From contig NZ_SOEB01000001.1 of NCBI RefSeq assembly GCF_004365965.1, positions 248,001 to 312,000 of the forward strand: a stretch of 64,000 nt of DNA. The letters run 5' to 3'. Source of the DNA: Rhodovulum visakhapatnamense. Its GTDB lineage: Bacteria > Pseudomonadota > Alphaproteobacteria > Rhodobacterales > Rhodobacteraceae. The notes under the pieces are model-generated. The model made no database searches, had not been told where the DNA came from, and saw only the letters and a list, made by a program, of their open reading frames with translations. Position numbers and translations under genes: made by a program. Shown here piece after piece: positions 24,786 through 28,842 of this stretch (its first letter is position 1; each line of letters starts with the position of its first letter).

Positions 24786-26618
24786 TCAGTTCTCCTCGGA
24801 CCACCAGACATCGGGCAGGAAGCCGACCCAGTCGCCATAGACCGGGATCGTCCCGGGGTAGTGCAGCCGGGCGGCATGGGCAAGATGCGAGCTGGGCGCG
24901 TACCAGATCGGGATGACATAGCGCCCGGTGGTCAGCACCCGGTCAAGCGCGCGGGTCGCGGCGATGAAGTCGTCTCTCCCGGTGGCGTTCAGAAGGGACC
25001 GGATCATCGCCTCGGCGGCGGGGCTGTCGATGCCCATCCAGTTGCCGGTGCCGGGCTGGGTCACGCCCGCCGCCCCCCAGTACAGCCATTGCTCGTTGCC
25101 CGGAGACAGCGACAGCGCGCGGGCGTAGACCGTCATGTCGAAATCGTAGGACGCGGTGCGCTGGACATATTGCGCCGCATCGACCTGGGTCACGCGGACC
25201 TCGATGCCCATCCGCTGCAGCGCATCGGCAAACAGGGTCACGATGCGTTCGCTGTCCGAGGCGCCCTGCACCAGCAGGATCTCGAACCGGAAGGGCGCGC
25301 CCTTATCGTTTCTGAGCCTGCCCCCGGGGCCGACCGTCCACCCGGCTTCGGCCAGCCGCGCCAGCGCCGCGCGCAGGTTCCGGCGGTTCTGCGGCCGCCC
25401 GTCCGAGACCGGCAGCGCATAGCCGTCCAGCGCGCCGGGCAACAGGCTGTCGGCAAAGGGGGCCAGAAGCGCGCGCACCTTTCCCTCGGCCGGACCCGGA
25501 CGCATGCCGAGTTCGGAATTCGAGAAATAGGACGCGATCCGGGGCTGGGTGCCGCCGGTCAGGGTCTGGTTGATGAATTCGAAGTTGAACGCGAGGATCA
25601 TCGCGTCGCGCACCCGCCAGTCGGCGAAGACCGGCCGCCGCGTGTTCATCGCGAGGCCCGAAATGCCCGAGGGCCGGTGGTGCGGGATCTCGGCCTTGAC
25701 GATGCGGCCGTCGCGGACCGCCGGAAAGTCATAGGCGCTTTGCCAGCGGGCATCGTTCGTTTCGCGGTAGATGTCGACCTCGCCCGCGGTGAAGGCCGCG
25801 AACAGCGCGGCCCCGTCGGCGTAGTAGTCGTGGCGGATCACGTCGAAATTGTGCTGGCCGCGGTTGAAGGGCAGGTCGCGCCCCCAATAGTCGGGATTGC
25901 GGCGCAGGCTGACGAAGCGGCCCGGCTCGACTTCCGAGACGACGTAAGGCCCGCTGCCGATGGGCGGCTCAAGCCCGCTGCGGGTGAAGTCGCGGCCTTC
26001 CCATTGCGCCTTCTTCAGGATCGGTCTCAGCCCCAGGATCAGCGGCAATTCGCGGTCGGGCGCGTTGAAGGTGAACCGCACGCTGCGCGGCCCCACGGCC
26101 TCGGCCCGGGCGATCTTCTCATAGCCGTTGCGATAGCGCGGATGACCCAGCGTGCCCAGCGTCTCGACCGACCAGAGCACATCCTCGACCGTGACCGGGC
26201 TGCCATCCGAGAACCGGGCCTCGGGCCGCAGGGTGAATTCGACCCAGTCGCGATTCGGGCCGGTGGTGACGGTTTCGGCCAGAAGCCCGTAAAGCGTAAA
26301 GGGCTCGTCCCAGGATCGGCCCATCAGGCTTTCGTAGCTTTCATGGCCCAGCGCCCAGGGCGCGGTGCCTTTCAGCAGGAACGGGTTCAGGCTGTCGAAA
26401 CTGCCGGTCTCGCCCAGCACGATTCGCCCGCCCTTGGGCGCGTCGGGATTGGCATAGGGCAGGGCCACAAAATCCGGTGGGAGAGCCGGGTCGCCATACA
26501 TAGCGATGCCATGGGCGGGGGCAGGCGCGGCGGCCTCGGCCAGGCCGAGACCGGCCGAGAGAATCACGCCGAGTGCTGCGCCTGCGACTCGCGCCGCGCG
26601 AAGGGGGATGCCTGTCAT
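24786..26618 (-). CDS. Extracellular solute-binding protein, family 5 (YejA-like)
   Basis: Periplasmic binding protein of a peptide-type ABC importer, 610 residues, with a Sec signal in the first 35 residues (AGAALGVILSAGLGLAEAAA). The patterns GIAMYGDPALP, PDAPKGGRIVLG, SFDSLNPF and NRGQHNFDVIRHDYY are typical of YejA (microcin C or oligopeptide uptake). No yejB, yejE or yejF permease or ATPase gene is next to it, so it is an orphan here or its partners lie elsewhere. The ATG at 26618 has only a weak AAGG. The entericidin-like gene follows directly. Confidence 0.92.
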   Translation of the reverse strand: MTGIPLRAARVAGAALGVILSAGLGLAEAAAPAPAHGIAMYGDPALPPDFVALPYANPDAPKGGRIVLGETGSFDSLNPFLLKGTAPWALGHESYESLMGRSWDEPFTLYGLLAETVTTGPNRDWVEFTLRPEARFSDGSPVTVEDVLWSVETLGTLGHPRYRNGYEKIARAEAVGPRSVRFTFNAPDRELPLILGLRPILKKAQWEGRDFTRSGLEPPIGSGPYVVSEVEPGRFVSLRRNPDYWGRDLPFNRGQHNFDVIRHDYYADGAALFAAFTAGEVDIYRETNDARWQSAYDFPAVRDGRIVKAEIPHHRPSGISGLAMNTRRPVFADWRVRDAMILAFNFEFINQTLTGGTQPRIASYFSNSELGMRPGPAEGKVRALLAPFADSLLPGALDGYALPVSDGRPQNRRNLRAALARLAEAGWTVGPGGRLRNDKGAPFRFEILLVQGASDSERIVTLFADALQRMGIEVRVTQVDAAQYVQRTASYDFDMTVYARALSLSPGNEQWLYWGAAGVTQPGTGNWMGIDSPAAEAMIRSLLNATGRDDFIAATRALDRVLTTGRYVIPIWYAPSSHLAHAARLHYPGTIPVYGDWVGFLPDVWWSEEN

Positions 26619-26702
26619 GGTGCTCGGGCCTTGTTCCGGCTGGGCCTTGTTTTGCTTGACCGCGAGCCTACGCGGAGCACCGTGGCTTTTCAAACTTTTA
26701 GC

Positions 26703-26731
26703 TTGGCCCTCGGCGCCGGATTGCGTATAAA
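26703..26731 (+). promoter_or_regulatory. Sigma70-type promoter of a candidate small RNA
   Basis: TTGGCC, a 17-base spacer, then TATAAA (26726-26731). Spacing is ideal and the -10 is five of six. No protein gene follows on the + strand before the terminator at 26787. Confidence 0.55.
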
Positions 26732-26737
26732 GAACCC

Positions 26738-26812
26738 ACTGCTCGATAGGTTTCTTGCCTGTATGAAACCTGCCTCAATAACTTAACGCCCGCCTTGTGC
26801 GGGCGTTTTTTT
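26738..26812 (+). ncRNA. Candidate trans-acting small RNA, about 75 nt
   Basis: Between the promoter at 26703 and a textbook terminator ending in seven T lies a short stretch with no reading frame worth calling. It can fold into a 7-bp stem (AGGTTTC at 26748-26754 with GAAACCT at 26765-26771, loop of 10 bases), a single-stranded linker rich in A and C (about 26772-26786), and the terminator hairpin. That is the layout of an Hfq-dependent sRNA. Family and targets unknown; start site estimated. Confidence 0.5.
26787..26812 (+). terminator. Strong Rho-independent terminator
   Basis: CGCCCGC (26787-26793), loop CTTGT, GCGGGCG (26799-26805), then TTTTTTT. It has no + strand protein gene upstream, which is why a small RNA is proposed. 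Confidence 0.88.
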
Positions 26813-26984
26813 CTGCGCGTTCGATGGATATCCCGGGCAAGAGAATCGACCGGGCGCGGGGCGCATCGGGTCCCGGCCGCAGCGGCCTCCGCCTACAGGC
26901 CGCAGCCGGTCGAGCCAATTCACTTCGGCTCCCGTTCGCGTGTGTTTCCCTGCTATGCCGCCGTCCCCGCGCCATGTAGGATTT

Positions 26985-26996
26985 CTGCAACTGCAG
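26985..26996. promoter_or_regulatory. Possible PhaR site upstream of bdhA
   Basis: CTGC-AACT-GCAG, an inverted repeat like the CTGC-N-GCAG sites recalled for the polyhydroxybutyrate regulator PhaR, lies 21 bases before the bdhA start. Suggestive only. Confidence 0.35.
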
Positions 26997-27017
26997 CATT
27001 CACGAAAGGGGTTTCAA

Positions 27018-27791
27018 ATGTCGCTTTCCGGAAAAACCGCCATCGTCACCGGGTCGAACTCGGGCATCGGGCTTGGCGTGGCGCATGAGCTGGCCCGGGC
27101 GGGCGCCGATGTTGTGCTGAATTCGTTCACCGACCGCGACGAGGATCACAAGCTGGCCGAAGAGATGGCCGCGCAGCACGGGGTGAAGGTGCGCTACATC
27201 AAGGCCGACATGTCCAGCGGCGAGGAATGCCGCGCGCTGATCGAAAAGGCGGGCGCCTGCGATATCCTGGTCAACAATGCCGGCATCCAGCATGTCGCCC
27301 GGATCGACGAATTTCCGGTCGCCAAGTGGGATGCGATCATCGCCATCAACCTCAGCTCGGCCTTCCACACCACCGCCGCGGCGCTGCCGGTGATGCGCAA
27401 GGCGGGCTGGGGGCGGATCGTCAACATCGCCTCGGCCCATGGCCTGACTGCCAGCCCCTTCAAAAGCGCCTATGTCGCCGCCAAGCACGGCATCGTGGGC
27501 TTCACCAAGGTGACCGCGCTGGAAACGGCCGAAGAGCCCATCACCTGCAACGCGATCTGCCCGGGCTATGTGCTGACGCCGCTGGTCGAGGCGCAGATCC
27601 CCGACCAGATGAAGACCCACAACATGGACCGCGAGACGGTGATCCGCGAGGTGATGCTGGACCGCCAGCCCTCGAAGGAATTCGCCACGGTCGAGGAGAT
27701 CGGCGGCACGGCCGTGTTCCTCTGTTCGGACGCCGCCAAACAGATCACCGGCACGACGATCAGCGTCGACGGCGGCTGGACCGCGCTGTGA
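27018..27791 (+). CDS. bdhA: D-beta-hydroxybutyrate dehydrogenase
   Basis: Cytosolic short-chain dehydrogenase that oxidises 3-hydroxybutyrate to acetoacetate with NAD, in polyhydroxybutyrate breakdown. The 257 residues have the cofactor loop TGSNSGIGLGVA, NNAGIQHVA, catalytic Ser/Tyr/Lys (IASAHGL, SAYVAAKHG) and NAICPGYVLTPLVEAQI, which is characteristic of BdhA. ATG at 27018 with GAAAGGGG. The patatin gene follows 7 bases later, so they form one operon. Confidence 0.95.
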   Translation: MSLSGKTAIVTGSNSGIGLGVAHELARAGADVVLNSFTDRDEDHKLAEEMAAQHGVKVRYIKADMSSGEECRALIEKAGACDILVNNAGIQHVARIDEFPVAKWDAIIAINLSSAFHTTAAALPVMRKAGWGRIVNIASAHGLTASPFKSAYVAAKHGIVGFTKVTALETAEEPITCNAICPGYVLTPLVEAQIPDQMKTHNMDRETVIREVMLDRQPSKEFATVEEIGGTAVFLCSDAAKQITGTTISVDGGWTAL

Positions 27792-27798
27792 GGGCGCG

Positions 27799-28842
27799 AT
27801 GACGACCCGGCGCATCAACCTGGCGCTGCAGGGCGGGGGCGCGCATGGCGCCTTCACCTGGGGCGTGCTGGACCGGCTGCTGCTGGACCCCGAGATCGAG
27901 ATTGCGGCGATCTCGGGCGCCTCGGCGGGCGCGATGAACGGCGCGGCGGTCAAGGCCGGGCTGGTCTCGGGCGGCCGCGAGGCCGCGCGCGAGAATCTCG
28001 ACTGGTTCTGGGAACAGGTGGGGGCGGTCGGCGACATGCGGCTGACCAGCTGGATGGCGGCCTTCCTGCCGGGCGCGGGGGCGGTGGCGCAGTTCATGGA
28101 ACACGCCCTGCCGATCTCGCTGATCGACAATGCCAGCCGCTCGGTCAGCCCCTATGCGCTGGGGCCGTTCTACCGCAACCCGCTGGAACGGGTGGTGCGC
28201 CGCTTCGATTACGGCAAGGTCTGCGCCAAGGCCGAACCGCTTCTGTTCGTCGGCGCCACCAATGTGCGCACCGGCAAGGTGCGGGTCTTCCGCGGCGACG
28301 AAATCGACGGCGACGTGTTACTGGCCTCGGCCTGCCTGCCGACGCTGTTTCAGGCGGTCGAGATCGACGACCCCGACACCGGCCGGACCGAGGCCTACTG
28401 GGATGGCGGCTATACCGGCAACCCGGCACTCTTTCCGCTGTTCGCGCCGGAACTGCCCGAGGACATCGTGGTGGTGTCCATCAATCCGATGGAACGCGAC
28501 GAGGTGCCCCGGACGCCGCAGGACATCCAGAACCGGATCAACGAGATCAGCTTCAACTCGTCGCTGCTGCGGGAGCTCAGGGCGATTTCGCAACTCGAAC
28601 AGCTGATCGCCGAGGGCCGGATCGATGCAGGCTCGCTGAAGGTGCCGCGGATTCACATGATCTCGGATGACGGGCTGATGAACAGCCTCAGCATCGTCAC
28701 CAAGCTGATGCCAAGCCCGATCGTGCTGGCCGAACTGAAAGAGGCCGGACGGGCGGCGGCGGACCGGTTTCTGCGCGAGGTCAAGCCCGCCTTGCAGACC
28801 GCCAGCAGCGTGAACCTCAAGCGGATGTGCGAAGGGACCTGA
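27799..28842 (+). CDS. Patatin-like phospholipase
   Basis: A 347-residue lipid acyl hydrolase with the Ser-Asp dyad motifs: oxyanion loop QGGGAHGAF, nucleophile GASAG (residues about 40-44) and DGGY with the catalytic Asp. No signal peptide, so it acts inside the cell. Its tight coupling to bdhA suggests a link to polyhydroxybutyrate granules or membrane lipid turnover, but that is inference. ATG at 27799, 7 bases after the bdhA stop. Confidence 0.93.
   Translation: MTTRRINLALQGGGAHGAFTWGVLDRLLLDPEIEIAAISGASAGAMNGAAVKAGLVSGGREAARENLDWFWEQVGAVGDMRLTSWMAAFLPGAGAVAQFMEHALPISLIDNASRSVSPYALGPFYRNPLERVVRRFDYGKVCAKAEPLLFVGATNVRTGKVRVFRGDEIDGDVLLASACLPTLFQAVEIDDPDTGRTEAYWDGGYTGNPALFPLFAPELPEDIVVVSINPMERDEVPRTPQDIQNRINEISFNSSLLRELRAISQLEQLIAEGRIDAGSLKVPRIHMISDDGLMNSLSIVTKLMPSPIVLAELKEAGRAAADRFLREVKPALQTASSVNLKRMCEGT

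Follow-up and report, generated by a model that had tools for sequence, protein, structure and literature searches.

The small RNA gene and its surroundings

A gene for an RNA of 75 nt, with a start placed at about 26738/26739, lies on the forward strand of a 64-kb window, by which we mean the whole stretch of Rhodovulum visakhapatnamense DNA analysed here (Table 1). On one side it is flanked by a divergent gene whose name, yejA, comes from an earlier sequence reading, and for which a profile search gives only substrate-binding families, below their cut-offs. On the other side lies bdhA, closely followed at 27799-28842 by a gene whose product we take to be patatin-like and which occupies the same place in many relatives. 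The sole NCBIfam match of that product, CBASS_lipase, reaches 21.3 bits, so far below the cut-off of 200 that we assign it to no family.

Table 1. Features of the small RNA locus, in window coordinates
Feature	Position	Strand	Remark
Divergent periplasmic ABC substrate-binding protein (yejA-like)	24786..26618	-	putative start codon
Conserved upstream element TCAAACTTTTAG	26690..26701	+	adjoins -35 box; consensus ttttcAAAcTTTtag over 161 copies
-35 box TTGGCC	26703..26708	+	first-position T in 161/161 copies
-10 box TATAAA, spacer 17 nt	26726..26731	+	TATA within expected stretch in 139/161 copies
Small RNA, probably StsR-type, 75 nt	26738..26812	+	extent from promoter spacing, conservation and terminator
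Predicted 5' pairing block CTGCTCG	26739..26745	+	complement of CGAGCAG (block B) of dcw leader
Internal hairpin, 8-bp stem, 10-nt loop (26755-26764)	26747..26772	+	unchanged in 58/58 aligned copies
Predicted seed TGCCTGTATGAAAC, loop and 3' arm	26756..26769	+	14-nt Watson-Crick complement of own dcw leader (block A)
Unpaired linker	26773..26784	+	sequence and length both variable
Intrinsic terminator, 9-bp stem-loop (26785-26807), seven T (26806-26812)	26785..26812	+	stem co-varies
D-3-hydroxybutyrate dehydrogenase (bdhA)	27018..27791	+	downstream neighbour, about 205 nt past RNA

The first-pass annotation had described a stand-alone sRNA gene, with a TTGGCC-N17-TATAAA promoter (26703-26731), one internal hairpin in a 75-base RNA and a seven-T terminator. 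All these parts are present as it had them, and the gene with its promoter proved to be conserved in copies throughout the family. In our tallies of promoter and synteny, which are limited to 165 loci with an intact 40-nt core, 137 of 161 copies have both TTG and TATA within the stretches where they are expected, and the upstream consensus over 161 copies reads ttttcAAAcTTTtagCTTGGa-N-TATAaag. The A/T-rich, A-tract or UP-like stretch at 26690-26701 is present in most copies and could be either an UP element or the site of a regulator.

Consensus scans of 25500-28500 are unremarkable for the parts of the sRNA. A sigma-70 scan returned no promoter where 0.3 were expected, and a terminator scan returned two terminator-like sites, both of them the sRNA terminator, against 2.0 expected. 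The case for the gene thus rests on comparison and conservation. Indeed, scans that do not rise above expectation would suit a chance arrangement of promoter-like and terminator-like sequences with no gene behind it, a reading contradicted by the family-wide conservation, the compensatory changes in the terminator and the conserved promoter, and to which we give next to no probability.

Folding of 26735-26815 yields -25.0 kcal/mol, compared with -13.85 ± 2.52 kcal/mol for 200 shuffles, none of which folded as well (z = -4.42). Across 58 aligned copies, seven of the nine predicted terminator pairs have changed on both sides with the pairing kept; one terminator pair is seen as CG, GC, UA and AU, and the outermost is broken or gapped in 13 of the copies. 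Support from covariation is limited to the terminator, as the internal hairpin is invariant in the same alignment. The conservation of stems in relatives that had been asked of the RNA is therefore borne out for the terminator stem, while covariation is silent on the hairpin.

Could the RNA encode a short peptide? The first-pass annotation saw no reading frame in it; a frame of seven codons (MKPASIT, ATG at 26764) lies inside it. A coding function would agree with ATGAAACCTGCCTCA being unchanged in the 58 aligned copies. However, linker indels alter the end of the frame between copies, inspection by eye shows no evident ribosome-binding site, and the letters concerned also serve as hairpin arm and predicted seed. 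We consider a peptide product hardly credible. By all the sequence evidence, the feature looks like a real sRNA gene of the trans-acting type.

Conservation across the Rhodobacteraceae

How widely is this RNA distributed? A blastn search with 26701-26830 found a match in every one of 37 genomes of the family, compared with none of 24 genomes of other families. A covariance model, built from 58 hand-picked rows among 102 non-identical copies, matched 384 of 394 family genomes, mostly once each, and 345 of the 347 good ones (at least 90% complete, at most 5% contaminated), although one match among the 345 (G428) is weak, at 30.7 bits, and cut by a contig end. Of the 10 family genomes without a match, 8 fall short of 90% completeness; the remaining pair, G172 and G194 (90-92% complete, more than 300 contigs), gave no match even with laxer filters. 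This is the covariance search across the family that had been proposed as a check.

When 385 genomes sampled across the class were searched, 29 gave a match at E up to 0.01. Five of these are family genomes scoring above 102 bits, and the other 24 score at most 32.1 bits, a value that no genome outside the family in this sample exceeds. The 25 loci read from those 24 genomes match at most 23 of the 40 core letters. Since strong matches are confined to the family, the sRNA is a family-level gene as far as the model sees. The exact 30-nt core is also present in loci named Neomegalonema (among at least 118 matching stretches). A search of phage records gave no match. In plasmid records the RNA is found on four Paracoccus replicons of 1.5-2.2 Mb, one per strain, filed as plasmid: NZ_CP035287.1 (214500-214572), CP038202.1, NZ_CP038196.1 and NZ_CP038206.1. 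Beneath these copies the gene table, which is incomplete, has no annotated feature.

The first 40 nt are one identical sequence in 147 copies, of which 117 come from loci (L031-L148) whose selection required 30 of the 40 invariant letters to match exactly, so that invariance of those letters there is by construction. In the best 30 of the 37 family genomes matched by blastn (L001-L030), all 40 letters are identical in each. A low-score set of 28 genomes was hand-picked among the lowest scorers and the misses of the covariance search; here, 17 of 26 matched copies keep all 40 letters. The length of the RNA ranges from 71 to 81 nt across 147 of 148 copies, L096 being left out because its locus ends inside the RNA. 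The linker is the most variable part of the RNA. Over the 60 columns that follow the T run in 143 copies, the share of the commonest base is 64% in the first and no more than 45% in any other; conservation thus stops there.

Among intact-core loci with enough sequence, the divergent yejA-like gene adjoins the RNA in 150 of 159. Downstream, 112 of 151 loci have bdhA within 500 nt and 9 have it at a greater distance; in the other 30 it was not found in the sequence available, which in 8 of them extends at least 4000 nt downstream. The RNA, its core intact in all these loci, therefore persists without an adjoining bdhA. Such counts bear on the proposal that the RNA is an attenuated 5' leader of bdhA, started at 26738 and mostly terminated, with read-through feeding the gene. 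The shared strand and the close spacing in the 112 loci fit this proposal, and according to published work UpsM, the leader-derived RNA considered below, was likewise initially taken for an orphan sRNA. A leader would, however, call for permanent linkage to bdhA, which part of the loci lack while the RNA core stays intact; in addition, conservation ends at the T run, and the sequence to which the invariant part is complementary lies at another place in the genome. We regard a bdhA leader as very improbable and continue with a separate sRNA gene.

Does the RNA belong to a named family? Rfam gave no match at the gathering threshold and nothing convincing at a relaxed one, the best being the Leu leader (27.9 bits against 50), the Trp leader and Hrs13; these sub-threshold matches resemble the sRNA in their hairpin-and-terminator layout. 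The same layout is found in suhB/MmgR (RF00519), an alphaproteobacterial sRNA, but membership was rejected at 19.6 bits against a gathering score of 41. MmgR is linked to polyhydroxybutyrate. As the searched copy of Rfam has no matching model, a covariance model of this RNA would permit its annotation.

A further named RNA is the Intergenic 134 sRNA of Paracoccus denitrificans. As described in PMC5107571, it is 84 nt long and confirmed by RT-PCR, is conserved in Rhodobacteraceae, shares its gene context with a putative R. sphaeroides sRNA, and has matches reported in Actinobacteria as well. Size and family conservation are alike; to call the two the same RNA on this description is a guess.

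Complementarity with the dcw leader and relation to StsR

In published accounts, StsR (RSs0827) of Rhodobacter sphaeroides is a 72-nt, Hfq-associated RNA (PMC8307010) that binds both UpsM and the dcw operon leader, triggering cleavage by RNase E. It is described there as controlled by RpoHI/RpoHII and induced by stress and in stationary phase, and a strain without it as showing quicker outgrowth and a higher final density; UpsM (RSs0682) is given as 206 nt long, with an RNase E product of 130 nt. Further background was taken from PMC11354728, PMC8625941, PMC5089854, PMC6238624, PMC3441632, PMC3688512, PMC3413700, PMC10673084, PMC13414033 and PMC4809877.

Because StsR has been published as binding the dcw leader, we read the mraZ leaders of relatives. 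For this, 30 genomes were hand-picked from the 37 family genomes matched by blastn; of those left out, G019, G023 and G032 were read later, and G029, G034, G035 and G036 lie outside the set. MraZ was found in 29 of the 30, with G026 lacking a match. As side observations, G026 does have the RNA, and in G194 neither an MraZ match nor the RNA was found.

All 29 leaders contain a block, TCATACAGGC (block A), set in a stretch with 13 to 17 of 17 matches to GCAGGTTTCATACAGGC, the complement of the loop and 3' arm of the RNA. The uninterrupted Watson-Crick run between RNA and leader is at least 12 nt long in 27 of the 29 and at least 14 nt long in 26. A second block, CGAGCA (block B), follows 35-44 nt after block A in 28 of the 29 leaders. 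In R. visakhapatnamense itself, an UpsM-like leader with a terminator and both pairing blocks precedes mraZ (L167), and its run with the RNA is 14 nt. Upstream of this dcw leader, in the own genome and in relatives, lies a conserved stretch, gTTGATTtCCATGAAtTCCCATGGCAT, which resembles MraZ boxes inside the UpsM promoter.

Is such complementarity more than background? Among 1014 windows of 250 nt, taken from both strands of the 64-kb window with the RNA's own place excluded, none has a run of 12 nt, and two reach the duplex energy of the leader. Within the 4.43-Mb genome, the 11-nt block TCATACAGGCA occurs twice, once within the RNA gene and once within the dcw leader, while a reversed control pattern is absent from it and occurs once each in 3 of 12 other genomes. 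A dimer fold of RNA and leader gains 12.9 kcal/mol over the separate folds. Judged by these matches, the loop and 3' arm would be the main pairing seed and the CTGCTCG 5' end a second block. Of the two seeds proposed by the first-pass annotation, the 10-base loop is retained within the main predicted seed; the A/C-rich linker, as the most variable part of the RNA, is unlikely to be one.

The promoter was compared with published descriptions, in which TTG is needed by both RpoH factors, A at -12 by RpoHII and T at -9 by RpoHI. In this numbering (TTG at -36 to -34), the sRNA promoter has A at -12 and A instead of T at -9, which suggests an RpoHII rather than an RpoHI type. The own genome holds two strong RpoH-type matches, of 367 and 275 bits, the second under the model cut-off of 323; a third, weaker match is probably the housekeeping factor. 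As a separate observation, a single COX1-family (PF00115) match at E up to 0.001 was found in the same genome (L149).

Taken together, we propose, with a probability of roughly 0.9, that the sRNA is the own-genome copy of StsR and acts on the dcw leader and UpsM as in R. sphaeroides. The identity is judged from conservation, size, promoter type and target, against published descriptions of the R. sphaeroides RNA. Both RNAs belong to the same size class (72 and 75 nt), come from an orphan gene with its own promoter, RpoH-dependent in R. sphaeroides and of putative RpoH type here, where an intrinsic terminator follows, and share pairing, predicted here, with the dcw leader and UpsM, which are the target and system partner and not the sRNA. 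They differ in rpoE: at the rpoE start, published as a secondary StsR target, 753 of the 1014 background windows pair at least as well with the RNA, so that rpoE is not supported as a target in the own genome.

Might the RNA instead be of the same general kind but no orthologue of StsR, that is, another family RNA likewise complementary to the dcw leader? An identification made from published descriptions, and rpoE pairing that is not reproduced in the own genome, leave some room for this. On the other hand, it would demand that two different RNAs share one site in this leader, whereas the RNA found in 384 of 394 family genomes, mostly as one match each, agrees with StsR in size and in published target and has a fitting type of promoter. 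We judge such a second RNA improbable and retain the identification with StsR. A search for an R. sphaeroides genome among the 394, by way of RpoE of PDB 2q1z, gave 78% identity as its best match, in a genus that holds a single genome, and none was recognised as R. sphaeroides. The titles and abstract parts of the literature searched hold no statement that StsR is conserved throughout the Rhodobacteraceae, and passages of a paper on Ruegeria pomeroyi sRNAs offer no usable link to the RNA. As an annotation of the R. visakhapatnamense genome the sRNA is new; as a kind it is known.

Proposed mechanism and leaders without the block

By analogy with published StsR, we propose that an RpoH-type promoter would drive the 75-nt trans-acting RNA under stress and in stationary phase. 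The dcw operon, headed by mraZ, has a 5' leader in which two blocks separated by about 37 nt would pair with the CTGCTCG 5' end and TGCCTGTATGAAAC of the RNA; the same pairing would take place with UpsM, the small RNA that arises from early termination of this leader. Pairing would expose the leader to RNase E, with a cut near the 3' side of the loop-paired block; UpsM and dcw mRNA would then drop and division would slow. Both the action of the own copy in this manner and the placing of the cut with respect to the blocks are inferred from the R. sphaeroides system. A terminator is recognisable in 26 of the 29 leaders, and in these the distance from the end of block A to the UpsM-like 3' end is 128-140 nt (median 136). 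If lengths carry over, the 130-nt UpsM product set against this median would put the cut about 6 nt downstream of block A; a position between block A and block B is thus predicted, from figures that belong to different organisms. Two predicted blocks with a spacing to the published RNase E product make the mechanism testable base by base.

Do all leaders of the family carry block A? Among 27 MraZ loci of low-scoring relatives (G031, also part of the first leader set, is included, as is G019, in which the block is present), TCATACAGGC was found in 14 and not found in 13. In several of the 14 the block is shortened to GGTTCATACAGGC; G172 and G093, both among the 13, have a near form with GTACAG in place of the block. 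Absence was judged within at most about 1500 nt on either side of the MraZ match, and L267 (G032) starts near a contig end; in some of the 13 loci, the leader may lie elsewhere or be cut. G023 and G032, both without the block, are among the first 37 blastn genomes.

In 7 of the 13 (G353, G426, G377, G122, G233, G023 and G093; loci L224, L231, L233, L235, L237, L240 and L241), the 40-nt half of the RNA is unchanged; in 5 (G098, G032, G141, G405 and G068) it is changed, and in G172 no RNA was found. Leaders without the block alongside an intact RNA are the sole finding outside the known function of StsR. Since the 40 nt are intact in these 7 genomes, other targets may exist. We searched 13 hand-picked genomes for TCATACAGGCA and found 34 places, of which 16 loci were read. 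Besides RNA genes and dcw leaders, these places are mostly inside long open frames; a place in G018 (L288) is located 62 nt upstream of an open frame. A shared second target was not seen in the 16 loci, in a search that covers uninterrupted block-A sites only. Tentatively, and at somewhat less than even odds, we view StsR as a near-universal core RNA of the Rhodobacteraceae, whose 40-nt half would be held fixed by older second targets or by a protein partner.

In one model species, StsR couples cell division to stress and to stationary phase. The distribution of the RNA and of its predicted pairing blocks suggests that the same link between stress and division is built into nearly the whole of the Rhodobacteraceae, and the strong constraint on the 40 nt, which persists even in genomes whose MraZ loci yielded no known target site, hints at additional targets of this RNA.
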